The notes: generated by a model not told the origin, from the letters alone. DNA of 64,000 nt from Halovenus aranensis (GCF_900100385.1 NZ_FNFC01000005.1:124001-188000), one strand, 5' to 3'; positions 11,043-27,163 are shown, counted from the first letter of the stretch. Program-made: numbers and translations.

Positions 11043-11082
11043 AGTGGGCCGGCGCGAATTCGAATCGCGGTTACGGCCACCC
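11043..11082. repeat. Left attachment site (partial tRNA-Pro copy)
   Basis: These forty bases are identical to 25540-25579. They correspond, on the minus strand, to the tRNA-Pro gene from within the anticodon to the discriminator base plus two bases. The 5' half of the tRNA is absent here, so this copy cannot make a tRNA; it marks the left boundary of the element. Confidence 0.9.
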
Positions 11083-11123: not shown

Positions 11124-12155
11124 ATGTCCAAGCCAAACCGGAACCTGACGCCGACCACGGCAGAGGAAGCGCTCGATTTGTACCTACGGGAACGGAGTAC
11201 CGACGTGACCGAGAGTACCTTACAGGCCCATGAGTACCGTCTGAACCATTTCATCCGATGGTGCGCCGGCGAAGGAGACGTAGAGAACGTAAACAATCTC
11301 ACCGGCCGCGACCTTCACCGCTACAAACTGTGGCGGAAGGAAGACGGCGACCTGAACAAGGTCAGTCTCAAATCTCAGATGGATACTCTTCGGGTATTCA
11401 TTCGCTTCTGTGAGACGGTGGACGCCGTCGAGAGTGACTTACACTCGAAAATAATCTCTCCGACGCTCGGGGATGGAACTGGTCAGCGGGACGTGAAACT
11501 CGATTCCGAGGAAGCCGAGGTACTACTCGACTATCTCGAACGGTTCGAGTATGCCTCGTTCTCTCACACCGTCGTTCTCCTGCTATGGCGGACGGGTATG
11601 CGTATCGGTTCGATTCGTTCGCTCGACCTATCGGACTTTCACCCGGACGACGAGTATCTATCCGTTCGTCACCGACCGGATACTGATACTCCGCTAAAGA
11701 ACAAGGGGAACGGTGAGCGGTACGTGGCTCTGACGACGGCTGTCTGTACCGTGGTCGAAGACTACGTCGACGTACACCGCCACGATGTTACCGACGAATA
11801 TGGGCGCGACCCATTGCTGACGACCAAGCACGGACGCCCCACGAACAACACTCTCCGGCAAACGGTCTATCGGTGGACGCGCCCCTGTCAGTATCAAGGG
11901 GACTGTCCGCACGGGAAAGAGAAAGACGAGTGCGAAGCCATTACTGAACGAGGGAGAGCGAGCAAGTGTCCGTCGTCAGTGTCACCCCATGCCATCCGAA
12001 GAGGAAGCATAACTCACCACCTGACCGAAGATGTACCAGAGCAAGTCGTGTCCGACCGGATGAACGTCAGCCAAGGAGTACTCGACGCCCACTATGACCG
12101 CCGGGACGAAGAGGTGAAGGTCGAACAGCGTCGTGACTATCTCGACGGGGTATGA
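11124..12155 (+). CDS. Tyrosine recombinase / integrase
   Basis: A 343-residue protein starting at ATG 11124, just inside the left attachment site; a longer frame reaching back through the att repeat was rejected. The N-terminal SAM-like core-binding domain spans about 10-110. The catalytic domain carries the first Arg at R160 (Thr-Gly-Met-Arg-Ile-Gly), the His-x-x-Arg pair at H289/R292, a further His at 298-299 and the nucleophile Tyr at Y324. Between the strand region and the His-x-x-Arg box is a Cys cluster (C255, C261, C270, C282) that looks zinc-binding. It should catalyse insertion into and excision from the tRNA-Pro site. All catalytic residues are present, so the element may still be mobile. 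Confidence 0.93.
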   Translation: MSKPNRNLTPTTAEEALDLYLRERSTDVTESTLQAHEYRLNHFIRWCAGEGDVENVNNLTGRDLHRYKLWRKEDGDLNKVSLKSQMDTLRVFIRFCETVDAVESDLHSKIISPTLGDGTGQRDVKLDSEEAEVLLDYLERFEYASFSHTVVLLLWRTGMRIGSIRSLDLSDFHPDDEYLSVRHRPDTDTPLKNKGNGERYVALTTAVCTVVEDYVDVHRHDVTDEYGRDPLLTTKHGRPTNNTLRQTVYRWTRPCQYQGDCPHGKEKDECEAITERGRASKCPSSVSPHAIRRGSITHHLTEDVPEQVVSDRMNVSQGVLDAHYDRRDEEVKVEQRRDYLDGV

Positions 12156-15646: not shown

Positions 15647-17641
15647 TCAGTCCAAGTCTACGAAATGGTCGCTCGGGGTGTCCGACGATACGGTGTAGAT
15701 GTGCGTACCGTAGGGTTCCTCTTCACGAAGAGTCGCAAACCCCTGTTCAACCAGTTCGTTCAGAACCTTGGTGGCATACTTTCGAGACGCATTGGTATTG
15801 TTCCACACTGCTTTGGTCGTGGTTTCGTCTTGCTCACGGGCGAACGCTATCACCTCGCTCTCTCTGGTCGCGCGTATATCGACACCTTCGCTGTCGTCGT
15901 CAAGTAGGAGAGACGGGCGAATCACGCTCGTATGGACGTAGACGGTCGCAGAGTCGGTCGGATTAGTCGGGTTACGTCCGTACCGAGAAATGGCCTGCTT
16001 CACCTCGTCGCGCCGAACACTGTCGCAGATTCGCTCTGCTACGCGAGCGTCAGGGCCGACGAATCCACGTCCTTCTGCCCGTTCCTTTCCGGTGTGGTTG
16101 CACTCTCGGCACCCGTCCCCCTCGCAGTTCGAACACTCGGTGTTCTTCCGGTCAGGGTTGGCCACAAGTCCGAGTTCAGCGAGCCGGTCAAGCACAGGCC
16201 CGTCGCCCATGTCGATACAGCCGACCACCAAGCCAACGTCTTCGTCCCCAAGAACGTTCCTGCTGTTCTGTTCCCCGAAGGTAAGGATAGTCGGGTCGTT
16301 CACCCCGGCGTCTTCCATCATTTGCTTCAGCGTGTCTTTCGCCGCCTTCGAGGTAATCGCGGACGAGAACGCGTCCCCATGTCGGTCGCGGAGTTCCTCG
16401 ACCAGCGCACGAACTTTTTGCGTGTTCTGGATACCGCGAGTGTAGTGATTTGCGTCTGACCCGACCTGAACGACGCGCAGTTGCTTCTCACGCCGTCGCC
16501 AAACCATTCGTTCTGGTGCCGATAGTAGATGATTCACGTCGAAGGAGACGCCCGTATTCAGTTTCCAAAGCGGTTTCGTCGGGAAAGCGTCCAACCCGAG
16601 AATGGTGTGGGCTTGGCTCATGTCGGGGACAACCCGCACGGTCTGAATCGTGTTCTCGTCGTCAAAGACCACCGTTACCTCTTGGTCGGTGTTCAGGTTT
16701 GAACCACCGAAGCCTGACGGTGCCTGTGGTGTGTAAGTCGCAGTCCCAACATATCGACCGTTCGACCGTGGTTCGGCCCGGAATATCGCACGGGTAAGTG
16801 CCGGTGCCAATGGGTGAGCGTCGTCGTTCGATACGCACCAATCTCTATCTGTCTGATGTGTGAGGGCATTTTGCAACTGTCCCTGAAACGGCTTATCGGC
16901 ACCCCCCTTCGAGAGTTCCATCAATAGTCCCAAGGTCTGTATCGGAGCCTCACCCTCGTCAAGATACGCCACAACAGCACAGCGGATACGCTCTCGACTC
17001 AAGTCGTCCGGCGAGTCCTTGAGGTTCTGCGTGAAGTCGGGCTGTTCGTCAAAAACGACTACCGTACCGTTCCGGAGTGGTGGGGCAAACGCGAACTGGT
17101 GCGTAGCGTGGATAATATCTACGTTGGCTCTGGTGAGCGGAAGCAAATCGGCCCACTGGATACCGGTCAGCGGTGCTTCGTCTAACAAGTCGTCATTGAG
17201 TTCAATCTTCGCCCGGTGAACTGCTTCCGGGTATCTCATGCCGTTGCGTTCACACTGCTGGTAAATCCACTGCCGAAGAGGCTTGCCGCGAATCGAAGGC
17301 CAGTCGAAGGCGTCAGAAGCAGGCAACGAAATCTCTTCCCACCCCTGTAGCACTTCAGCGTCTAATCCTGCTTTCTTACTCTTTTTCGCGGCCTCGTCAC
17401 GGGCGTCTCGTGTCTTGTGGAAATGAATGACTGGCTTCTGATTGGTCAGTGAAGGGTATTGGCCCCACGGAGTCGTCGCTACCGTGTGCGTCTTCCCGAG
17501 TGCTGTCGGAACGTCGAAAAGAGTGTTCGAGCGTTCTCGAAGTGCGTCAAGCACCTCGTCTCGGAAGCGTGAACGATACTCGTCGGTCTTGTAGTCGAAC
17601 TGTGGCGGTACGCTCTTGGCGGTGGAGTACGTAGCATTCAT
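15647..17641 (-). CDS. Helicase/ATPase-like protein with zinc knuckle and C-terminal winged helix, possible replication protein
   Basis: A 664-residue protein, taking ATG 17641 over an in-frame GTG 18 bases upstream. The N terminus has a Walker A-like Ala-Leu-Gly-Lys-Thr (lysine near 50), and a DEx-type Phe-Asp-Glu-Gln lies near 197-200, as in superfamily 2 helicases. Further on are an Ala-Glu-Leu-Gly-Leu stretch and a Cys-x-x-Cys-x4-Cys-x-x-Cys zinc knuckle (about 503-514). The last 60 residues look like a winged helix. Proteins of this layout occur on haloarchaeal plasmids and integrated elements, where a replication role is assumed. The flanking noncoding tract at 15182-15646 supports that idea. 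The strict Walker A glycine spacing is relaxed, so ATPase activity is likely but not certain. Confidence 0.6.
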   Translation of the reverse strand: MNATYSTAKSVPPQFDYKTDEYRSRFRDEVLDALRERSNTLFDVPTALGKTHTVATTPWGQYPSLTNQKPVIHFHKTRDARDEAAKKSKKAGLDAEVLQGWEEISLPASDAFDWPSIRGKPLRQWIYQQCERNGMRYPEAVHRAKIELNDDLLDEAPLTGIQWADLLPLTRANVDIIHATHQFAFAPPLRNGTVVVFDEQPDFTQNLKDSPDDLSRERIRCAVVAYLDEGEAPIQTLGLLMELSKGGADKPFQGQLQNALTHQTDRDWCVSNDDAHPLAPALTRAIFRAEPRSNGRYVGTATYTPQAPSGFGGSNLNTDQEVTVVFDDENTIQTVRVVPDMSQAHTILGLDAFPTKPLWKLNTGVSFDVNHLLSAPERMVWRRREKQLRVVQVGSDANHYTRGIQNTQKVRALVEELRDRHGDAFSSAITSKAAKDTLKQMMEDAGVNDPTILTFGEQNSRNVLGDEDVGLVVGCIDMGDGPVLDRLAELGLVANPDRKNTECSNCEGDGCRECNHTGKERAEGRGFVGPDARVAERICDSVRRDEVKQAISRYGRNPTNPTDSATVYVHTSVIRPSLLLDDDSEGVDIRATRESEVIAFAREQDETTTKAVWNNTNASRKYATKVLNELVEQGFATLREEEPYGTHIYTVSSDTPSDHFVDLD

Positions 17642-17840
17642 CGTCGTAGCCTCTTCCACGACAGGGGAAGGACGACCTTGGCCGGACGACCCTTCCCTCT
17701 TCCTCGCAACCTAACGATTAGCGGCGCGTTTCGTGTGGTTAGTTCACCTATTTTCTCGGGACACTAAAACGGTCGCACAGACGTACCTCAAGGCTTCACG
17801 CAGGCGTATAGGATTTCGCTGATAGGGGTATTGAGAAAGG

Positions 17841-20066
17841 TTACACTTCAGAACGTACTTGATATAGGGGAGCCGTTAGTTCAGAATCACATTCTGCACA
17901 TCGGACTTCTCCGCTATTTGCTTGGATTTTCATTGATAGCGAACCACAATCACAATTTCTTATTGCTGTCCATTCGTTACCGTTGAGCGTTTGGTTCCGA
18001 ATACTAACACTCGCAATCGACTGTCCATTTCTCTTATGATAATTATCACGAACAGATTGGGAAATTCTATTTTGAAGGTCGCGCCTCTGCTCTGTACTAA
18101 ACTCGTGGTATCCCTCTATACACACAGAAGCCTCACTCGCCCCTGACCACCACTTGAGAACGAAATCAACGAGTTCGTCAGTACGATTTTCGATTGCTTC
18201 TCTACCCCATTCAACATTATCTGGATGAGGAAGTTCCCTCAAGTGTTGTTGGTTTGAATTATCATAGGTCTCTTCCCACTTTTGTCGATAAGGCTTGTTG
18301 CTTGCGTGTGGATTATCATCAGGACTGATGAGAGCGAGATTACCCAAGGAGTTCACGCATTCCTCATGCTCTTCAGTGCGCTCTTCTGGTAACTCCCTCG
18401 GGTTCTGCGGCCAAATGTGTTCGAGTTGTACCCGCCGACTTCCCAAGCCAACACCCGTGAATTCACGGAAATCAGCAATTGGCGACTCGCCACTGTTCTG
18501 CATTCGCAAATACCGCTCATATTCATATAACAGATAGACAATTGAGGTTTCACCGATTCCGCCCCACCTATCATTACCATTGACAACATCTGATTGGCGG
18601 AGATAATCTGCAATGAGGTAATCCGGGCAATATCGACCGAGGTCGTCTTCGATTTCTCTCACGATGTACTCGTAAGCGGCTTCTGTGGTCTCAAAGACTT
18701 CTTCTGGTGGGGTATGGCCTTTTCCGAAAATATCATTTGCAGTTTCACTCCGGCCAACCCATGAAACAGGGTACGACATTTTGCGTATATGGGCACGCCT
18801 CTTATCCGCCCGCGAGTTGGCGATTTGATATAGTCGAAACGCATGAGTTCGACACAATTCTATCGTTCTCAAAAACTCTTCACTATGCCCGAACGTTCTG
18901 CCTGCACTCATTAGCAAAGACAGATAGTTGGTTTCTTTCCCGATAGCATTGAAACTTTTTAATGCCGACACTATCTCTCTTTCAACTTTTGTAGGATTAT
19001 TGGCTTCCCGAAGTATAACATCTGGATTCGTGATTTTACGGAATTCCTCTGCCGCTGTTCTCATATCTTGCATATACGCCTCAATCCAAATCTTCTGTTC
19101 TTCGGGTGGGCGGGACTGGGGGATATGAGCAGGAATCCGTTTTACTCGACGGTGTATGTCTGTGATGGTACTCGTCTCAAAACTATATTCACCCGAAAAT
19201 AGTCGCCAGTGTTCTCGAACAAATCTATCAACCGACTCTTCGCCACCGTTTTGTGAGACTTTTTCGATGACGGCCCCAATCTTCTGATAAATATCTTCAG
19301 CAAGCGATTCATCATTTTGCCGGTCTGCACAGAAAATCAGATAACTTTTGATTTTATCAATAGTCGTAAGGTCGCGCCCTCTATCGTTTAGTACCTCGAA
19401 AAAGCGACCTGCTTCACTTGTTTGTTCGATTGTGTATGTAGTAACTTGGATATTAGAAAACAGTACCTCCGACAATCCTGATAAGAATTCGAGAAAGTCG
19501 TCTTCGTCTTCTTCCTTCTCGTCCAACCAATCATGTATAACTTCTTTCGCATTAAGCAGGTACCCCTGCGAAGGGATACTTGCAGATACACTATCTGTAT
19601 TTTCGCTGTTAATGATAACCAAGTCGTAGACTTCTTTTGTCTTTTCTTGCGGTCGAATCCGTGCTTCGCCACGGAAATCAATAAATGTCTCTTGATTGTC
19701 CTCTATGATTTTCTCTACTGATTCACCGTCAATTTCTTCGTGTTTGTACTCTTTCAATCGTTCGTTTATGCATTGGAGTAAGACTGTAATAGTGGTGAGC
19801 CGTTGCTGACCATCAATAACATTGTATTCACTTAATTTCCGTCGAGATACGGTTTTAGTACCAACATTTTGAAGGACAATTGTTCCGAAATAGTGAAAAC
19901 CTTCGAAATCTGCGTTCCTTGTCCTGTCTCGATGAAGATGTTCAATATCAGAAAGTAAGTCCTGTACTTCGGATGTAGTCCATGAATATCCACGTTGGTA
20001 CTTTGGGACAGTGAAAAGTCCGTTCTCAAAAAGAAGGCCTAAATCTTGTTGCTCCGCATCTGCCAT
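17841..20066 (-). CDS. DUF262-DUF1524 nuclease, GmrSD-like type IV restriction protein
   Basis: A 741-residue protein. The N-terminal DUF262 (GmrS-like, ParB-fold) domain shows Val-Pro-x-Tyr-Gln-Arg-x-Tyr-x-Trp at 20-29 and the diagnostic Asp-Gly-Gln-Gln-Arg at 85-89. A long helical middle leads to DUF1524, an HNH-type nuclease with Leu-Glu-His-Ile-Trp-Pro around H550 and Leu-Gly-Asn-Leu-x-Leu-Ile followed by Asn and Ser-Asn-Lys. After it is an extra C-terminal domain of about 100 residues ending in a zinc ribbon (C705, C707, C723, C726). The fused family restricts DNA carrying modified bases, using NTP. The gene is visibly A+T-rich compared with the host, a sign of transfer. The decayed SWIM relic lies just upstream. 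Confidence 0.88.
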   Translation of the reverse strand: MADAEQQDLGLLFENGLFTVPKYQRGYSWTTSEVQDLLSDIEHLHRDRTRNADFEGFHYFGTIVLQNVGTKTVSRRKLSEYNVIDGQQRLTTITVLLQCINERLKEYKHEEIDGESVEKIIEDNQETFIDFRGEARIRPQEKTKEVYDLVIINSENTDSVSASIPSQGYLLNAKEVIHDWLDEKEEDEDDFLEFLSGLSEVLFSNIQVTTYTIEQTSEAGRFFEVLNDRGRDLTTIDKIKSYLIFCADRQNDESLAEDIYQKIGAVIEKVSQNGGEESVDRFVREHWRLFSGEYSFETSTITDIHRRVKRIPAHIPQSRPPEEQKIWIEAYMQDMRTAAEEFRKITNPDVILREANNPTKVEREIVSALKSFNAIGKETNYLSLLMSAGRTFGHSEEFLRTIELCRTHAFRLYQIANSRADKRRAHIRKMSYPVSWVGRSETANDIFGKGHTPPEEVFETTEAAYEYIVREIEDDLGRYCPDYLIADYLRQSDVVNGNDRWGGIGETSIVYLLYEYERYLRMQNSGESPIADFREFTGVGLGSRRVQLEHIWPQNPRELPEERTEEHEECVNSLGNLALISPDDNPHASNKPYRQKWEETYDNSNQQHLRELPHPDNVEWGREAIENRTDELVDFVLKWWSGASEASVCIEGYHEFSTEQRRDLQNRISQSVRDNYHKRNGQSIASVSIRNQTLNGNEWTAIRNCDCGSLSMKIQANSGEVRCAECDSELTAPLYQVRSEV

Positions 20067-20136
20067 GCTATCGACCTAATAAGCGACGATTAAAAACTGT
20101 ACGGGTATTCTAATTATATACAAATAAATAACCCAA

Positions 20137-20299
20137 CAATTTGTCGCCCCCTGTGGCGTTCGGATTTGATTTCTCGAAGCCGTCCCGATAGTAAGCCAGC
20201 AGGGTACGTCTTCTATTGAGGGAACGCACCAACAGCCTTCAAGATGGTCGTTGTCGCGGTCGTCGGCAGTCAATGAGGTACTGTTCTCTACTGACACTG
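20137..20299 (-). pseudogene. Decayed copy of the SWIM zinc-finger gene 3' end
   Basis: This segment aligns without gaps to the 3' part of the intact SWIM gene (about 23108-23270), offset by 2971 bp; about two thirds of the bases from 20151 to 20267 agree. The minus-strand translation keeps Ala-Asp-Asp-Arg-Asp and a Cys-x-Cys followed by a Cys-Trp, matching Ala-Asp-Asp-Arg-Asp and Cys-Asp-Cys...Cys-Trp of the intact protein. The stop codon and the SWIM motif itself are missing. It lies directly upstream of the DUF262 gene and ends near the IS66 transposase start. Confidence 0.72.
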
Positions 20300-20335
20300 C
20301 CTCATAGTTATTGAGAGTTGCATTGATATCCACAT

Positions 20336-21436
20336 ATGGACTCGAATAGCCGCCATTCAGTAGGCCCAAGAGACGAAAGTCAGATTCGGGTCACGCAGGA
20401 TAGGTGTGACCGTTGTGGATGTGTGCTGGACAATGTGAGCGTCGTAATTCCTGTAAACGAAGTAGAACAGCCGGAGAATATTCGATACCTTCGACACCAC
20501 TATGAATGTGAGAATTGCAACAACTCCGTAATTGCCCATCAATCGAATTGTCCAACAGAGGGTGGCTATGGAACGAATCTACTCGCCCAAATGGTTCTCT
20601 TCCGCTATGAATATAGGATACCCTATAAGAAACTCGCACATCTGATTCAACAACTCTATTCATGTGATATTCACCGAACAACAGTTCTCAATGCCTGCGA
20701 GCGTATGGAACGTACTGCTCGTTCTGAATATGAGGCTCTTCATGAACGGATACAATCAGCAGAAGTTCTCTACGCAGACGAAACGCCACACTTGGTTGAT
20801 GGGTCAAAGAGTTGGATATGGGCATTCACGACAGGTGATGAAACGCTCTATGTATTCCGTGATAGCCGAGGGAGTGAAGTTTTAGAAGAAGTCCTTGGCG
20901 AAGAGTTCACTGGGATTATTGTCTGTGACGGCCACCGCTCATATTCTGCGTACCACTCACAGTTACAACGGTGTTGGACACATCTGCTACGTGGTACCGA
21001 TAGTCTTTCGGACGATGACACAGAAGCATGGGGGATTTACAATCGACTTTTCGAGATTTTTGACGGGCTAAAAGAGTTCGTGAACACTGACCCGTCTCCT
21101 GTTCAGCGAATAATTGTTCAACGAGAATCACGTAAGGAACTGCGACGGATTGCAGAAACAGAGGTGGAATCTGAAGACGCCGAAGACGTACTGACTATGC
21201 TCGGGAATGGTATCGGTCACTGGCTTACATTCGTTGTCTATCCACAGGTCAAGCCGACGAATAACACGGTAGAGGCTATATTGCGTGAGCCAATAGCAAT
21301 GCGAAGAATCATCAGGACACTCAAAAACGAGAAGGGAATGAGGTTACATGAGACGTTCTTATCGCTACTTCGGACATGGAAACAGCAAGACGCAAACCCG
21401 TATACTGAACTGAAACGATTGGCACATGATGTATGA
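20336..21436 (+). CDS. IS66-family transposase (ISH10-like), apparently lacking the usual N-terminal region
   Basis: A 366-residue protein. It begins with the IS66 zinc-binding region (C24, C27, then C58, C61) and continues into the DDE catalytic domain: D148 in Tyr-Ala-Asp-Glu-Thr, D198 in Val-Cys-Asp-Gly-His-Arg-Ser-Tyr, and E313 in Asn-Asn-Thr-Val-Glu-Ala. All three catalytic acids are present. Many IS66 transposases are longer and carry an N-terminal helix-turn-helix with a leucine-zipper-like part, which is missing here; archaeal versions can be shorter. I found no convincing terminal inverted repeats or target duplication by eye, so the insertion-sequence ends are undefined. The gene is A+T-rich. 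It separates the two decayed cassette relics. Confidence 0.85.
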   Translation: MDSNSRHSVGPRDESQIRVTQDRCDRCGCVLDNVSVVIPVNEVEQPENIRYLRHHYECENCNNSVIAHQSNCPTEGGYGTNLLAQMVLFRYEYRIPYKKLAHLIQQLYSCDIHRTTVLNACERMERTARSEYEALHERIQSAEVLYADETPHLVDGSKSWIWAFTTGDETLYVFRDSRGSEVLEEVLGEEFTGIIVCDGHRSYSAYHSQLQRCWTHLLRGTDSLSDDDTEAWGIYNRLFEIFDGLKEFVNTDPSPVQRIIVQRESRKELRRIAETEVESEDAEDVLTMLGNGIGHWLTFVVYPQVKPTNNTVEAILREPIAMRRIIRTLKNEKGMRLHETFLSLLRTWKQQDANPYTELKRLAHDV

Positions 21437-21461
21437 TATATTTAATTACTTGACTGTATCC

Positions 21462-21515
21462 GGTCAACAGTCGTCACGCCGACCAACCGACAGCCAGTAG
21501 GCCGGTTCACCGACG
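21462..21515 (-). pseudogene. Possible relic of the 91-aa zinc-ribbon gene 3' end
   Basis: GGTCAACAGTC at 21462-21472 is identical to 22716-22726 in the 3' end of the intact zinc-ribbon gene. It is followed by further matching blocks (CGACCA, CCG, CCAGTA) in the same order, with a 2-base gap. Translated on the minus strand, a Tyr-Trp shared with the intact C terminus is seen before the frame breaks. It lies just beyond the stop of the PLD gene, so the PLD gene is flanked by two versions of the same sequence. Confidence 0.45.
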
Positions 21516-21534
21516 AATCCGCGCCTGTCGTCAG

Positions 21535-22665
21535 TTAGTCGTCCGCGAACATCTCACGAAGCATCTGATTTCTGTACTCTTCGTCAACTGCCGCCCGAAA
21601 CACCAGCGGTTCGTGAGAGTCCTGATATGGCGACCCACTCGCACGCTCTAACTCGTTGTAGACCGTACTAATCCACGCCCGACGGAACGATTGTGACACC
21701 ATTCGCTTCGGCTCTCCGGTAAACTCGACCCAATGTGGTGTCTCGTCGGTGGCTTCCCCGGAGAGGGCATTGAACGCCATGTGTTCGTCGGCAGTTTCGA
21801 TTAGTTTGTCCACGTTCTCGGTGTCGGTACCAACGATGAACCCGGTCGTCGGTTCGCCTGAAAAGAACGCACCGAAGACGTACCGGTTGTTGATGGATAC
21901 GGCGATTCGGTCGTCTTGGGCGATAGATGTGACCAGCCGAGCGTCGTCTTCAGCAAGACCAGTGGCGGCTATCAGGTCGTTCAGCAGGTCGAAGAAGTCG
22001 GTCGCCCATTCCCGGCTCGGGGCTTGCTGAACACGGTGTACCAGTGTCTCGTGCGCCTCTTCGTCGGCGTCTACGTCTTCCGTGGTGGGTTCGGTATCGT
22101 CTGTGAAGGTCGCGCTCACTCGTGGTGCGTCCGAGGAAAGCGAGGTACCGGACTCGGTATGGGTCGTTGGTGTCGAGGGCGACGATTCCACGAACTCGTC
22201 CAATTCCTCGCTATCGACGGGGCCACTTTCAGACCAGAGTCGTGTGAACCACTCGTTCAGTTCTTCTACCTTCGCGTCGTCGGTGAACCGAACCCCCATC
22301 TCTGTCCGACCGACCACGCCCTTCTCCGTGAGGTTGGCCGAACCGACGACAGCCGAATCGTCGGATATGACAGCCTTCGCATGAACATCGGGGAAGTGGT
22401 GAATCTGTTCTCGGTTCGTCGCTATCAACTCGTGTATCTCGTCCCGCGTACTGCCACCGAACGTTCCAATCCACGCTTCCACGTCGGTCACTATCCGCCA
22501 GTCGTCAGCAGAGGCGAGGACGCTTTTCAGGTAACTCGGGCCGATGTACGGACAGACAACCCGAACGCTTTCGGCGTCGGCAGTGTCCCGAATCGCTTTG
22601 TCGAATGGCGATTCAGCACGGGCATAGCCACCCTCGGAATGGTAGATAAGGCGAGACATTAGCAT
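21535..22665 (-). CDS. PLD-family nuclease-like protein with unknown C-terminal domain
   Basis: A 376-residue protein; ATGs at 22665 and 22659 are both possible starts. Residues about 5-150 form a phospholipase-D-type domain with one HKD-like motif: H95-x-K97 followed by Gly-Ser-Ala-Asn at 108-111. A single motif is typical of dimeric PLD nucleases such as BfiI and Nuc. An acidic Ser/Thr-rich linker (about 150-205) joins a C-terminal domain of about 170 residues that I cannot place. It is the last gene of a four-gene cluster starting at 23611, 36 bp behind the upstream stop. A restriction- or defence-type nuclease is the most reasonable guess. Confidence 0.75.
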   Translation of the reverse strand: MLMSRLIYHSEGGYARAESPFDKAIRDTADAESVRVVCPYIGPSYLKSVLASADDWRIVTDVEAWIGTFGGSTRDEIHELIATNREQIHHFPDVHAKAVISDDSAVVGSANLTEKGVVGRTEMGVRFTDDAKVEELNEWFTRLWSESGPVDSEELDEFVESSPSTPTTHTESGTSLSSDAPRVSATFTDDTEPTTEDVDADEEAHETLVHRVQQAPSREWATDFFDLLNDLIAATGLAEDDARLVTSIAQDDRIAVSINNRYVFGAFFSGEPTTGFIVGTDTENVDKLIETADEHMAFNALSGEATDETPHWVEFTGEPKRMVSQSFRRAWISTVYNELERASGSPYQDSHEPLVFRAAVDEEYRNQMLREMFADD

Positions 22666-22701
22666 AAGAGAGGCCCATCTGGTTGAAAATTCCTACGCTG
22701 G

Positions 22702-22977
22702 TCAGGGCCGACTGCGGTCAACAGTCTTGGCACCGACCAGCCGTCCCGACCAGTACACGGCTTCGACAATCACCTCGTCGGCCCCGTCAGTGGGTAGACC
22801 GATAGTCGTACTACTGCACTTGTCACACCACACGCGCCGGACGACCCACCCATCGGCGTCGTAGTAAGTCGCATACGCCCGAACGAGGTCGCCAGTCTTT
22901 ACCCGCTTATTACAGCGGTCACAGATGTTCCCCACCTGTACGCCGTTCAGAACCGCCGCAGGGGATTGGCGGGTCAT
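22702..22977 (-). CDS. Small zinc-ribbon protein (91 aa)
   Basis: Four cysteines, C19, C22, C51 and C54, form two Cys-x-x-Cys knuckles separated by a beta-rich stretch (Leu-Val-Arg-Ala-Tyr-Ala-Thr-Tyr-Tyr), as in treble-clef or rubredoxin-like zinc ribbons. The ATG at 22975-22977 overlaps the TGA of the preceding 45-aa gene in an ATGA, showing translational coupling. It sits between two other zinc proteins and the PLD nuclease. Such ribbons bind nucleic acid or protein partners; which applies here is unknown. Confidence 0.7.
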   Translation of the reverse strand: MTRQSPAAVLNGVQVGNICDRCNKRVKTGDLVRAYATYYDADGWVVRRVWCDKCSSTTIGLPTDGADEVIVEAVYWSGRLVGAKTVDRSRP

Positions 22978-23111
22978 CGACCCACCTCAAGCGACGAGTA
23001 GACAACGTTGCACTCGTCACAGGCCCATCCGCGCTGGCCGGTCACGCAGTCCAACAGTGCGCCGTATTCGAGTTCCCCACCGCAACGGGGACACGTCGGA
23101 GCGTCCGTCAT
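22974..23111 (-). CDS. Zinc-ribbon microprotein (45 aa)
   Basis: ATG 23109-23111 to TGA 22974-22976 gives 45 residues with Cys-Pro-x-Cys-Gly-Gly at 7-12, a lone C22, and Cys-x-x-Cys at 31-34, a compact zinc ribbon. Both ends overlap neighbours by ATGA: its ATG overlaps the SWIM gene stop, and its stop overlaps the 91-aa gene's ATG. This double overlap is strong evidence that the frame is real, despite its size, and that the three zinc proteins are made together. Function unknown. Confidence 0.72.
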   Translation of the reverse strand: MTDAPTCPRCGGELEYGALLDCVTGQRGWACDECNVVYSSLEVGR

Positions 23112-23611
23112 TCGTCGTCACCCGTGGCGTGCGGGTTCGGTTCCTCGAACCCGTCCCTGTAGCAGGGCCAGCAGGCAAGTCCCTCGAAGTCCGGGCTACA
23201 ATCGCAATCCTCGGGACGGTCGTCGTCGCGGTCGTCGGCACCGAACGAGTCGAGGGTGACACCACCGTCGGTCGCGGCGACCTTGGGCGTCCCGGCGATG
23301 TGTTCTCCGAGTTGGGCGTCTATCTCGTCGGCGTCCACCCACGCAGGGATAGCCCGCTGACCAGTGGCGAAGCGAGTGCGGCGGATGTGTTTGCACTCGA
23401 CTTCCCGGTACTGGTGGTCAGGACACGTACACCGGTCTTCACGGGCGTCTACGCGGTACTCTGACCCGCTCTGCGTCGTCACAGAGTACACGTCGCCCCC
23501 GAGCGGAAGGACGGTCATGTACTCCGTCAGGGCGCGTACATCGCGCTGTTCGAGGTCGGTACAGCCAGCCGTGACGGAAGATTCATCTTCCGCTGTCTCG
23601 AATTGGCTCAT
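23108..23611 (-). CDS. SWIM zinc-finger protein
   Basis: A 167-residue acidic protein, taking ATG 23611; the frame extends 15 codons further but is Arg-rich there. The SWIM signature is C61-x-C63...C73-x-H75, preceded by the typical beta strands (Tyr-Ser-Val-Thr-Thr-x-Ser-Gly-x-x-Tyr-Arg-Val). A second Cys group follows near the C terminus (Cys-Asp-Cys, then Cys-Trp-Pro-Cys). SWIM domains bind DNA or proteins and occur in MuDR transposases, SNF2 helicases and many small haloarchaeal proteins. It heads the overlapping cluster SWIM - 45 aa - 91 aa - PLD. A decayed second copy lies upstream of the DUF262 nuclease. Confidence 0.82.
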   Translation of the reverse strand: MSQFETAEDESSVTAGCTDLEQRDVRALTEYMTVLPLGGDVYSVTTQSGSEYRVDAREDRCTCPDHQYREVECKHIRRTRFATGQRAIPAWVDADEIDAQLGEHIAGTPKVAATDGGVTLDSFGADDRDDDRPEDCDCSPDFEGLACWPCYRDGFEEPNPHATGDDE

Positions 23612-23709
23612 GCCTTCTTGGCTCCGTCGAGAAGGCCTCGTCCGGTGTTGGCGCACCGGGCGTTTTCGAGTGAATCACGCCTCAAGAGACGAGTCCTTCT
23701 CTATCTATA

Positions 23710-23773
23710 CCTTGGACGGCACGGATATTAAGTGTACTGCCTTGGACGGTATAGTTAACTGATTACGCGTAAT
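23710..23773. promoter_or_regulatory. Repeat-rich divergent control region (SWIM operon / wHTH gene)
   Basis: CCTTGGACGG occurs at 23710-23719 and again at 23740-23749, exactly 30 bp apart (three helical turns). A perfect 12-bp palindrome, ATTACGCGTAAT, occupies 23762-23773, ten bases before the ATG of the wHTH gene at 23784. GTTAAC at 23754-23759 is a further 6-bp palindrome. This looks like an operator region for the wHTH protein, able to control both itself and the SWIM cluster. Confidence 0.6.
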
Positions 23774-23783
23774 AGAAGCCTGT

Positions 23784-24044
23784 ATGGGCGAAGATTCAAA
23801 GCCGGGGCCTACACCGAGAGTGAGTGACGACGAAATCATCGACCTGTTTCGGGATACCGACGACCCCGTGCTTTCGACTGCGGAAGTGGCAGAACAGGTA
23901 CCGCTCAAGCGACGTGCAACCTACAACCGGCTCCGGTCACTGGCCGACGAGGGTCGATTAGAGAGTAAGCAGATTGGTGGTCGGAACACAGTGTGGTGGC
24001 TGGCCGAATCCGAGAAACTCCAACCGCAGTCGTTTGTGGAATAG
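23784..24044 (+). CDS. Winged-helix transcriptional regulator
   Basis: An 86-residue protein consisting of one winged helix. Helix 1 lies around Ser-Asp-Asp-Glu-Ile-Ile-Asp-Leu-Phe, the HTH around Leu-Ser-Thr-Ala-Glu-Val-Ala...Arg-Arg-Ala-Thr-Tyr-Asn-Arg-Leu, and the wing around Gly-Arg-Leu-Glu-Ser-Lys-Gln-Ile-Gly-Gly, followed by Val-Trp-Trp-Leu. Small haloarchaeal regulators of this layout are frequent on mobile elements. It is transcribed away from the SWIM cluster, with the palindrome and direct repeats between them, so autoregulation and control of the cluster is the natural hypothesis. Confidence 0.8.
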   Translation: MGEDSKPGPTPRVSDDEIIDLFRDTDDPVLSTAEVAEQVPLKRRATYNRLRSLADEGRLESKQIGGRNTVWWLAESEKLQPQSFVE

Positions 24045-24200
24045 TGAAACCGAATCACAGAGAGTTATAGGGTTATAAAACACTCTTCAGGCGCTCTGAC
24101 GGTCGTGACTCTGGTTCAACCTCAAAAAATGGATACCACTCGCTACGCGACGAACGCTCTCACAGCGCACTCACGGCGCTCTCTCGGCTTGCTGGCGGTG

Positions 24201-24219
24201 CTACTATCCTCGAAAGTAG
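24201..24219. repeat. Short inverted repeat between convergent genes
   Basis: CTACT at 24201-24205 pairs with AGTAG at 24215-24219, and TC with GA inside, giving a hairpin with one mismatch and a 3-base loop. It lies in the 280-bp gap (24045-24325) between the wHTH gene and the convergent Schlafen-like gene. Nothing else is seen there. It may mark transcription ends. Confidence 0.35.
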
Positions 24220-24325
24220 TGGTAGAGGAATCAATACACCCGTTCATGGCCAGATAGGGGACGAGTATCCGAGCGGCGTTACTCTGCGTCGTTTGTTTTG
24301 AGTTCCGCCGGACTCTTTATGTCTG

Positions 24326-25132
24326 TTACAGGGTGATGTTCTCAACACCAAGTCGTTTCTCAATTCTGGCTTTCTTTTTCTTTATCAGATGAGATATATA
24401 CTCTTCGTAACCTTGGTTGGGATAGTGTGGATTGGGTTTAGTTTCTTCATGTGGAAACCTATTCAACGCACCGGCAAGAGCCGCTAACGAAGAAATAGTC
24501 TTTTTCTTATCAACCTCGTTATAGAGCGTTTTCAGTTGCCGCAACTCTTCATGGAGTTCTGCCGTTTCCTTCTCGACACCCCTTTCTCGCCTTCTCCGAA
24601 GGAGTGATTGTACTTCTTCGTAGTTCGCAACACTGCTTTTTGTATTCCTTCTAACATATATATCGCCTTCGTCAATGTTTTCCCCGGCATTAGTTGCTAC
24701 AAGAGGGGCACGTTCACCTGCACCATCAATGAAGAGGGCTTGAAATGTGCGGCCAGAAATTCCATCGTCGTATACTTCTCCGTAAGTGAACGTTTCAAGC
24801 GAATAAACGTCATGTGCGGAGTCAGGAAGATATTTTTCGACCTTGTTTCCAAAGTCAGATTCATCAAGAGGGTCGTTTACACCAGACGATTCAAGCGATT
24901 CATCTCCGACTTCTTCTACACCGATTATGATAGCACCCCCACCAGAGTTAGAGAAGGCCAAGATATGGCGGGCCAGTTGCGAACGTTCGTGCCACTCACT
25001 CTTGAAGTCGAGATAATCGTATTCTTTGTCGGCACTCAAGATAGCCGGGAGAGTATCTTTTGAAGGAGAAGTGAAGAAGCGTTCTAAATCATCTTTGAAT
25101 GACTCTTGATATTCGAGGTCTTCACTGGCCAT
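24326..25132 (-). CDS. Schlafen/AlbA_2-domain protein
   Basis: A 268-residue protein, starting at ATG 25132 rather than an in-frame GTG at 25150. The AlbA_2 (divergent AAA-4, Schlafen core) domain is clear at about 38-175: an Asp-Phe-Lys-Ser-Glu acidic motif at 42-46, then Ala-Phe-Ser-Asn-Ser-Gly-Gly-Gly at 59-66 and Ile-Ile-Ile-Gly-Val-Glu-Glu. The remaining 90 residues are charged and helical, probably a coiled coil at about 175-215. Schlafen-type domains bind nucleic acid, and some cleave RNA; archaeal and bacterial forms are frequent in defence islands. The gene is A+T-rich. It is the last sizeable gene before the right end of the element. Confidence 0.8.
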   Translation of the reverse strand: MASEDLEYQESFKDDLERFFTSPSKDTLPAILSADKEYDYLDFKSEWHERSQLARHILAFSNSGGGAIIIGVEEVGDESLESSGVNDPLDESDFGNKVEKYLPDSAHDVYSLETFTYGEVYDDGISGRTFQALFIDGAGERAPLVATNAGENIDEGDIYVRRNTKSSVANYEEVQSLLRRRRERGVEKETAELHEELRQLKTLYNEVDKKKTISSLAALAGALNRFPHEETKPNPHYPNQGYEEYISHLIKKKKARIEKRLGVENITL

Positions 25133-25154
25133 ATGTAGGCCAACTCTCACCCAT

Positions 25155-25283
25155 ATGCCAAAGAATTGTCGCTACAGACACTCTGAACCAATAGAAGCAC
25201 TGCGCGTGAGGGCAGGGCAGACCGAGAAGGACTACGGTGAACTCGGGTTTCGGATTCTCCAAATCCTCGAACATCTGCGGTGA
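25155..25283 (+). CDS. Possible small ORF (42 aa)
   Basis: ATG 25155 to TGA 25281-25283 gives 42 residues. The first half is basic (Lys, Arg, His) and the second could form an amphipathic helix (Gly-Glu-Leu-Gly-Phe-Arg-Ile-Leu-Gln-Ile-Leu-Glu-His-Leu). It starts only 22 bp from the Schlafen-like gene, in the opposite direction. Codon use is acceptable but nothing confirms translation. Confidence 0.3.
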   Translation: MPKNCRYRHSEPIEALRVRAGQTEKDYGELGFRILQILEHLR

Positions 25284-25539
25284 GAGTGCAGTTAGCCTCG
25301 GAACAGGCTACGACCGCTGAAATCCTAATCCCTCGAATACGCCACATACAGCAGTCAAATCTATACAATTCATCCCGAAAGAGGGGAAGACTGAAAGGGC
25401 CAAAGCCCCGACGTATTCACAGAAGTCCATGACGGCACGGGGGCGCACTTGCGGCGCAATTGAACTCAATAGTCGAGTTCCAAACAGGATTGATAAACGG
25501 TAGACTGCCGTCTTGTGAATCCTAATCACCTGAAAGGGT
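25284..25539. other. Right end of the element, no gene; repeated octamer
   Basis: No credible gene in 256 bp. TCCTAATC occurs twice on the plus strand, at about 25323 and 25519, each followed by CC or ACC and a short A+T-poor run. Repeats near an attachment site can be integrase arm-binding sites; two copies are too few to be sure. Confidence 0.35.
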
Positions 25540-25579
25540 AGTGGGCCGGCGCGAATTCGAATCGCGGTTACGGCCACCC
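25540..25579. repeat. Right attachment site (inside tRNA-Pro)
   Basis: Identical over 40 bp to 11043-11082. On the minus strand it spans the tRNA-Pro gene from the second anticodon base to the discriminator base, plus two bases beyond. Because the repeat regenerates the tRNA 3' half, the tRNA gene on this side stays functional. Confidence 0.9.
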
Positions 25580-25614
25580 GAAGGCCGAAGGATACCAAGC
25601 TACCCCACCGGCCC
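25542..25614 (-). tRNA. tRNA-Pro, anticodon CGG
   Basis: On the minus strand a complete cloverleaf can be drawn. The acceptor GGGCCGG pairs with CCGGCCC. The anticodon stem CGGCC/GGCCG encloses the loop TTCGGGT with anticodon CGG (reads CCG). The T arm CGCGA/TCGCG has loop TTCGAAT. The discriminator is A and CCA is not encoded, as usual in archaea. The D stem is weak but typical for proline tRNAs. It serves as the integration target of the element. Confidence 0.93.
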
Positions 25615-25663
25615 GCATCTGTGAGAAAGCCAGCGTCCAATTTAACGGTTGCGGAATCGCCCC

Positions 25664-27163
25664 CTACAGGTCATAGAGGTCCTCGAACTTCGCGCGGACG
25701 TAGTCGACGAAGGGCTGGGCCGAGAGTTCCTGCCCGGTGGCCACCTCGATGAGTTCGGGCGTGGTGTAGCGCTGGCCGTGCCGGTGGACGTGTTCGGTCA
25801 TCCACTCGCGAATCGGCTCGAAGTCCTCCTCGCGGACGAGCGCGTCCACGTCGAGGTCGTCGCGGATGGCGTCGTTGAGCTGTGCGGCGACGACACTGCC
25901 CAGCGTGTAGCCGTGGAACGCGGCGAAGCCGCCGGTCCAGTGGATGTCCTGGAGACAGCCCTCGCTGTCGGTCTCGGGACGCACGCCGAGGTACTCCTCC
26001 ATCTTGTCGTTCCAGACCTGTGGAATCTCCGCGGCCTCGATGTCGCCCTCGACGAACGCACGGCCGATTTCACACCGGAGGATGATGTGCATGTGGTATG
26101 TCAGCTCGTCGGCCTCGACGCGGATGCGGTTGTCCGGGTAGATGCGGTTTGCCGCCTCGTAGACCTCGTCGACAGTGAGGTCGTCGTGGCCGTCGATATG
26201 CCGTTTGAACGTCGGGAGGAACTGCTCCCAGAACGGTTTCGTCCGGCCGATGTGGTTCTCCCAGAACCGGGACTGGGACTCGTGGATACTCATCCGTGAG
26301 GCCCCGAGCGGCGTGCCGTACTCGTCCTGTCGAAGCCCAAGCTGGTAGGTTGCGTGGCCGAACTCGTGGATAGTCGCGGTCAGCGCGTCCATCGGGTCGG
26401 TCGGCTTGAACCGCGTCGTCACGCGGGCGTCGAACTGGTTGCCAGCCATGAACGGGTGCGGTGCGGTGTCGAGGCGGCCGCGGTCGCGCTCGTAGCCCAG
26501 AAAGTCGAGCGCGGCCTCGCTGAGTGCCTCCTGGTCGTCGTCTGGGTACTCGCCCTCCCATGGGTCGGCCAGTTCGCGCCCCTCCGTCCGAATCTCCTCG
26601 ACCAGCGGCGGAATCTCCGACCGGAGCGTCTCGAAGATGTCGGTCATCGTCTCGATAGGGATGTACTGGTGACTGCCCTCGTAGAGGACCGTGTACGGGC
26701 TCTTCTCGGGGTCGATGTGTTCGGCCTTCTGTCGCTGGAGGTCGCGCATCGTCTCCAGGCGCGGCGCGAAGGAGGCGAAATCGTCTTCTGCCTTTGCCTT
26801 TTGCCAAATCTGTTGGTTCTCAGAGGCGGTCTGTGTAATCTCCTCGTTCAGTGCCGCGGGGACGTGCGCTGCACGCTCGTACTCGTTGCGGATTTCCCGG
26901 ACGTTCGCGGCCTGCTCCTCGGTCAGGTCTGCGCCTTCGAGAGTATCGAGCCACTCGCCGACCTCGTCGTCGACGAGCAGCTCGTGCGTCGTCGCCGACA
27001 GCGCAGAGAGCTGTTGTGCCCGTCCCGGTGCACCCCCCTCAGGCATCGTCACCCGCTGGTCCCAGTTGAGATACATCGACGCGTATCCGAGATTCGACAG
27101 CCGTCGGTTCCGTTCGATAAGCTGTTCGTAGGCAGCGTCGGCGTCAGCTTCGTTCGTCGCCAT
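25664..27163 (-). CDS. M32-family metallocarboxypeptidase
   Basis: A 499-residue enzyme of the thermostable carboxypeptidase 1 (Taq/Pfu) family. The zinc motif HEFGH is at 266-270, followed by the family's Met-Ser-Ile-His-Glu-Ser-Gln-Ser-Arg-Phe-Trp-Glu-Asn block near 295, which contributes the third metal ligand. The length is normal for M32. It releases C-terminal amino acids from peptides in the cytosol, acting in peptide turnover. The strongly acidic N terminus fits a halophilic enzyme. It begins the chromosomal flank right of the tRNA and is divergent from the antiporter gene. Confidence 0.95.
   Translation of the reverse strand: MATNEADADAAYEQLIERNRRLSNLGYASMYLNWDQRVTMPEGGAPGRAQQLSALSATTHELLVDDEVGEWLDTLEGADLTEEQAANVREIRNEYERAAHVPAALNEEITQTASENQQIWQKAKAEDDFASFAPRLETMRDLQRQKAEHIDPEKSPYTVLYEGSHQYIPIETMTDIFETLRSEIPPLVEEIRTEGRELADPWEGEYPDDDQEALSEAALDFLGYERDRGRLDTAPHPFMAGNQFDARVTTRFKPTDPMDALTATIHEFGHATYQLGLRQDEYGTPLGASRMSIHESQSRFWENHIGRTKPFWEQFLPTFKRHIDGHDDLTVDEVYEAANRIYPDNRIRVEADELTYHMHIILRCEIGRAFVEGDIEAAEIPQVWNDKMEEYLGVRPETDSEGCLQDIHWTGGFAAFHGYTLGSVVAAQLNDAIRDDLDVDALVREEDFEPIREWMTEHVHRHGQRYTTPELIEVATGQELSAQPFVDYVRAKFEDLYDL

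Follow-up and report, generated by a model that had tools for sequence, protein, structure and literature searches.

The haloarchaeon Halovenus aranensis carries, within a stretch of 64,000 nucleotides analysed as a whole (NZ_FNFC01000005.1:124001-188000; hereafter the window, from whose first letter positions are counted), a compact run of three genes for small zinc proteins and one for a PLD-family nuclease, with a regulator gene facing away from them. Do these genes form a single conserved system, as an earlier note on the same DNA had suggested, and what stands in front of and behind them? The account that we consider fairly likely as a whole is a different one, in which a leader-led zinc cassette stands before a restriction locus of exchangeable content, carried by an integrative element of haloarchaea. 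Comparison of loci shows a promoter, then the leader with its two exclusive folds and the start codon, then the cassette and the exchangeable cargo, and the leader most likely represents a new family of cis-regulatory RNA. L-numbers below designate individual loci.

The genes of the locus

The four minus-strand genes and the divergent wHTH gene of the earlier note were all reproduced in position, as were the ATGA overlaps at 23108-23111 (SWIM/ZR45) and 22974-22977 (ZR45/ZR91) and the 36-bp gap between ZR91 and the PLD gene:

21535-22665, minus strand: PLD-family nuclease gene (376 aa; single HKD motif; conserved C-terminal domain, about residues 198-376), the cargo gene
22702-22977, minus strand: ZR91, 91-aa zinc protein, the most constant cassette member
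22974-23111, minus strand: ZR45, 45-aa CxxC zinc ribbon
23108-23611, minus strand: SWIM-A zinc protein (167 aa), the first gene behind the leader
23784-24044, plus strand: wHTH regulator, divergent (phrog_18890 transcriptional regulator, E 3.2e-9)

A SWIM start at GTG 23656 was set aside for the better placed ATG 23611, because this is where the leader described below ends and relatives start with MSQF or MQTT. For the three small proteins, described earlier as zinc proteins, Pfam scores lie under the cut-off, both for SWIM (14.7 bits) and for the two ribbon proteins, but the CxC..CxH residues are invariant in SWIM homologues, which also share a C-terminal CxC..CxxC, and C19/C22/C51/C54 are invariant in 24 homologues of ZR91. 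SWIM-A matches phrog_17897 (E 2.5e-27), ZR45 is 73-89% identical in five other loci, and the wHTH protein is 92% identical in L163 and 67% in L104, divergent from SWIM in both. ZR91, whose AF2 model has a pLDDT of 93, shares with the haloarchaeal C(P)XCG small zinc-finger proteins (PMC6562870, PMC11241148) its tiny size and two CxxC knuckles, but is longer and has a beta-rich C-terminal part, and comparison with the PDB gave no confident match to its fold. The words “restriction” and “SWIM” are absent from the 2024 paper of these two.

A structured leader with two competing folds

Few natural riboswitch-type elements are known from Archaea, and haloarchaea are believed to depend largely on leaderless transcripts. 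The region between SWIM and wHTH had been described as a repeat-filled control region, which is right but understated, since it holds CCTTGGACGG twice within an inverted repeat and, in addition, a 93-nt structured leader:

23702-23757, no strand assigned: two operator-like half-dyads, TATACC-N6-GG.. / CC-N6-GGTATA, on either side of the TATA box
23724-23733, minus strand: predicted TATA box (CTTAATATCC), about 28 nt ahead of the leader
23609-23701, minus strand: structured leader RNA of about 93 nt, with a P1-P2-P3 junction, a P4 hairpin and an alternative helix P0

Both operator copies recur in L163 and one (ATACCGTCTAAGGTA) in L104, whose control region has otherwise diverged; the wHTH protein may act as a repressor at these dyads flanking the promoter. 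Over 92 leaders, upstream A+T content peaks at 97% at -29 and 93% at -28, the position of an archaeal TATA box, so the leader begins at the likely transcription start. From there it runs to the SWIM AUG and ends exactly on it.

The leader comprises three covarying stems, with P1 enclosing P2 and P3, and two mutually exclusive helices at the AUG, one of which, the hairpin P4, follows the junction and abuts the start codon. In a six-sequence MAFFT alignment, scored against a structure specified by the analyst, double changes are seen in 10 of 24 pairs and 94.3% of cells are paired, and none of 500 shuffles of that alignment reached the observed number of paired cells or the covariation score. 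Given no structure, RNAalifold returned P0+P1+P2+P3, with P0 covarying. Both P0 and P4 covary and share columns 68-74, and since P0 takes the columns of the 5' strand of P4 the two exclude each other; P0 is 77% paired, against 29-60% for slid positions. A covariance model (R2) built from 26 leaders, among them that of the window (77.9 bits, E 1.9e-14 in cmsearch, as a member of the training set), was then run on other genomes, where 69 matches in 57 loci, with 68 further sequences, showed double changes in 18 of 23 pairs and 94.5% pairing, against 29-49% when slid, in an alignment fitted to the model and hence of a kind that favours the model structure. Mixed MAFFT alignments (A6-A8) that placed P2 wrongly were excluded from the models, as were weak leader matches at L089 that end on a short out-of-frame ORF. 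Pseudoknots of the P3 loop, J12, L2 or L4 with the conserved codons 9-13 gave no convincing excess. Covariation, then, supports the two folds and their exclusivity, and the leader has the traits expected of a riboswitch-like element: covarying structure, a 5' UTR with a promoter before it and a start codon after it, and mutually exclusive helices.

The leader occurs in 107 of 243 Halobacteriales genomes, which brings archaeal RNA-based control through competing helices within reach of direct tests in genetically tractable strains; in a phylum-wide draw of 158 genomes all ten positives fell within Halobacteriales, and none was found in the about 130 genomes outside the order. Several copies are often present in one genome, up to nine. 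Among 95 inspected copies the final three bases are AUG in 93 and two lack it, and a pattern sort of the genes that they open gave 36 SWIM, 26 other CxxC, 3 Tat-signal, 13 short ORFs and 15 others. Leaders also open genes for which no restriction neighbour is in evidence, and the RNA is therefore not specific to defence. Conservation extends into the first 13 codons after the leader (23573-23611, minus strand, in the window) at the nucleotide rather than the amino-acid level, with A at +29, C at +36 and G at +37 across 87 unrelated starts; no pairing partner was found for these three nucleotides. Tandem leader-plus-gene units, three or four in a row and each before a different SWIM-like or unknown gene, are seen at L209 (G105:C108) and at L215 and L217 (G069).

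Could the conserved fold act at the DNA level, as a hairpin for recombination or replication that sets a promoter-plus-start module before many genes? The module, its 13 or so codons included, does head very different genes, singly and in tandem, and in the leader helices G.U pairs (62) barely outnumber A.C mismatches (48), so that wobble does not prove the RNA strand. We nevertheless regard a DNA hairpin as improbable, as the fixed distance to the TATA box, the exact end at the AUG and the two competing covarying helices fit an expression platform.

Taking the leader as RNA, the transcript would open with about 93 structured nucleotides ending at the SWIM AUG and would be subject to a choice between a closed fold (P0-P1-P2-P3), which would consume the 5' strand of P4, and an open one, which would leave the P4 hairpin against the AUG. 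P4 may occlude the start codon and P0 may free translation, with a SWIM or ribbon protein or Zn2+ as candidate effector, and the leader would in this way control the cassette of SWIM, ZR45 and ZR91, behind which a slot appears to take different restriction systems in different genomes, here the PLD nuclease. The fuller proposal, of a new class of archaeal RNA switch that senses a small molecule, a metal or its own zinc-finger product, toggles between P0-closed and P4-open states at the start codon and governs SWIM/zinc-ribbon cassettes fronting restriction loci, is put forward tentatively.

Leaders of this general kind have precedents in Archaea, namely the S15 r-leader of Halobacteria (PMC7247131) and the fluoride riboswitch of T. 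kodakarensis, termed in 2021 the sole natural archaeal riboswitch shown experimentally (PMC8241225). The window leader shares with archaeal leader RNAs a structured, covarying 5' leader directly ahead of a start codon, but differs in heading SWIM/zinc-ribbon genes, in its up to ninefold presence per genome, in its competing P0 and P4 and in having no Rfam match: 4227 Rfam models run on window positions 20000-25700 and 15 loci returned only tRNAs and sub-threshold chance matches. The kind is thus already known, while the family, its downstream genes and the switch layout were found neither in Rfam nor in the literature searched. The open-access papers searched describe neither this leader nor zinc cassettes at the restriction loci of haloarchaea, and the link between zinc cassette and restriction is absent from a survey of RM systems in Halobacteria (PMC6471742).

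The zinc cassette and its restriction neighbours

The recurring unit is the cassette SWIM(-ribbon)-ZR91. Of 243 Halobacteriales genomes, 209 have SWIM relatives and 48 have ZR91 at E<=1e-3, about 15 of them strongly; at E<=1e-10, 29 ZR91 loci were found in 24 of 392 genomes, ZR45 being present at six. A methyltransferase, counted as an N6_Mtase or Eco57I gene within 10 kb of ZR91, accompanies 19 of the 29 loci, against 0.59 expected from gene density; the corresponding tail probability of 7e-27 disregards relatedness and overstates independence, because several ZR91 loci have flanking genes in common and go back to a shared ancestor. L165 counts among the 19 solely through a methyltransferase 8.7 kb away. 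Of the remaining ten, four carry PLD and one has McrBC beside the cassette (L170); RM genes missed by both methyltransferase searches are present at L103 and L164, ZR91 is a pseudogene at L151 and L152, and no restriction gene was found beside ZR91 at L166. The earlier suspicion of a link to restriction or defence is in this sense upheld, ZR91 cassettes adjoining restriction systems far above chance, and the cassette can serve as a marker with which to find restriction and PLD-nuclease cargo in haloarchaea.

Behind the cassette lie type I RM systems (L102, L103, L139, L142, L145, L163), type IIG systems (L117, L141, L143, L144, L146, L147), Mrr plus PLD (L005, L007) or PLD alone (the window, L162), and at L101 GmrSD comes straight after SWIM alone. 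In the closest relatives the large RM genes are convergent with the cassette and so do not form one operon with it; what follows on the same strand there are TBP paralogues, a 168-aa unknown, DUF4268 proteins or PLD. TBP paralogues adjoin restriction genes in several islands (L139:8137-8682, L142, L163, L140, L143). The source genome holds a second cassette (L117), in which ZR91 is disrupted near its end and which is convergent with a type IIG gene read as two overlapping ORFs.

Such adjacency might be selected rather than the result of hitch-hiking, the SWIM and ribbon proteins serving, like C-proteins, as dedicated controllers or antidotes of the restriction enzyme that follows. It persists across unrelated restriction types, the islands also contain TBP paralogues and wHTH genes, which hints at a regulatory theme, and few of the SWIM genes checked that lack ZR91 are near methyltransferases (within 10 kb in two of ten). 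Yet the RM genes are often convergent, ZR45 is optional, SWIM families A and B swap freely, and many leaders and SWIM genes are found where there are no restriction genes, all of which makes dedicated control the less likely reading, though a selected functional link between cassette and restriction genes may exist. We read the arrangement instead, from the gene orders compared, as an element backbone with an exchangeable slot for restriction systems, the PLD nuclease being one such cargo.

The PLD nuclease as probable cargo

The PLD protein is, as the earlier note had it, a one-motif nuclease with an unfamiliar C-terminal domain. A single HKD motif (HAKAVISD..GSAN; Pfam PLDc_2, E 2.2e-11) is present, invariant residues across 13 homologues include H95 and N111, and in the AF2 model (mean pLDDT 81) residues 1-194 match NucT, Nuc, SauUSI (Z 13.8), NgoAVII R (11.2) and BfiI (10.1). 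The C-terminal domain is conserved among homologues and gave only sub-threshold matches, to no family, in a Pfam search; its assignment to DUF4268 was rejected (hhalign probability 1.5%). By analogy with Nuc and BfiI, the protein should dimerise to complete its active site.

With BfiI, NgoAVII/NgoFVII and SauUSI the window protein shares a Nuc-like domain with one HKD motif (Z 10-14), but it differs from them in that no methyltransferase adjoins it, its own chain contains no helicase and its C-terminal domain matches no family. With regard to a B3-like DNA-binding domain at the C-terminus, a trait of the BfiI/NgoFVII type, the structural hits were taken up by the PLD domain. N6_Mtase and Eco57I searches found no methyltransferase within 10 kb of the four ZR91-PLD loci, whose restriction neighbours, Mrr, GmrSD, a GmrSD_N protein (HEC-05 profile) and a PQQ-Mrr protein, are all methyltransferase-free; a nuclease without a methyltransferase, the mark of type IV restriction, is what these loci present. 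The PQQ-Mrr protein, of 938 aa, joins PQQ beta-propeller repeats to an Mrr nuclease domain and is convergent with PLD (L007:9156-11972, L162:9772-12588). Judging by fold, motif and neighbours, PLD probably cuts DNA as a dimer, in restriction of the methyltransferase-free (type IV-like) kind. The PLD core is also similar to that of DISARM DrmC, an identity that was rejected (NF038319, 39.8 bits against a cut-off of 133), and PADLOC found no DISARM core genes (DrmA/DrmB) among nine element proteins scanned.

Might SWIM, ZR45, ZR91 and PLD still be one DNA-recognising, DNA-cutting defence system? The gene order is common to the window and two loci of Halorientalis persicus (L005, L007), but an Mrr_cat nuclease gene stands between ZR91 and PLD in the latter; L162, with SWIM-B, ZR91 and PLD in order, keeps the ZR91-PLD junction of the window, but its SWIM is of another family and ZR45 is missing. 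PLD is usually found without all three zinc genes and the cassette usually without PLD. Of 243 Halobacteriales genomes about a dozen encode a full-length PLD homologue, in most cases with neither SWIM nor ribbons, and within the genus PLD is present in one of 18; outside the four loci, orthologues (35-83% identical) have no SWIM or ribbon partners, with the partial exception of L098, where a ZR91-like gene and a SWIM match, both weak, lie nearby. Several orthologues adjoin genes that, by eye, are VapBC-like or MNT/HEPN-like. A single conserved four-gene system, as first proposed, is contradicted by these distributions, and we hold it to be very improbable. The earlier note had named two signs against its own idea: the four proteins are indeed rarely together, with SWIM near-ubiquitous, but the ribbons are not plasmid staples, plasmids yielding one weak match in 72,556.

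An integrative element at tRNA-Pro

The locus lies inside a 14.5-kb tRNA-Pro element bounded by perfect 40-bp repeats:

11043-11082, plus strand: left att-type repeat, 40/40 identical to 25540-25579
11124-12155, plus strand: tyrosine integrase at the element's left end, inward of the left repeat (44-53% identical to integrases of related loci)
17841-20066, minus strand: GmrSD-type (type IV) restriction protein (GmrSD_N E 4.2e-33, GmrSD_C E 2.8e-18), neighbouring cargo
20193-20276, minus strand: decayed second SWIM gene, lying upstream of GmrSD
25540-25579, plus strand: right att-type repeat, within tRNA-Pro (25541-25614, minus strand)

Repeats, tRNA overlap and integrase, whose homologue at L101:9107-10114 is assigned to PF00589, confirm the earlier placement of the module within an integrated element. 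In having an integrase, att repeats and swapped restriction cargo, the element resembles defence-carrying integrative elements at tRNA genes, and differs from them in the conserved zinc cassette, led by an RNA, with which its cargo slot begins. Besides GmrSD, it encodes an IS66 transposase, an AlbA_2/Schlafen protein and a helicase-like protein. The decayed SWIM gene that precedes GmrSD in the window has an intact counterpart in the same genus, where SWIM and its leader (L101:8016-8498) stand directly upstream of a 94% identical GmrSD. The AlbA_2/Schlafen-domain protein (24326-25150; E 4.3e-9), encoded between wHTH and the tRNA-Pro end, is a possible further defence gene. A 670-aa protein at 15647-17659, which has no confident match in Pfam or PADLOC, may be an element replication or helicase gene; distant relatives (22-34% identical) recur at five or more further loci, close to SWIM or ZR91.
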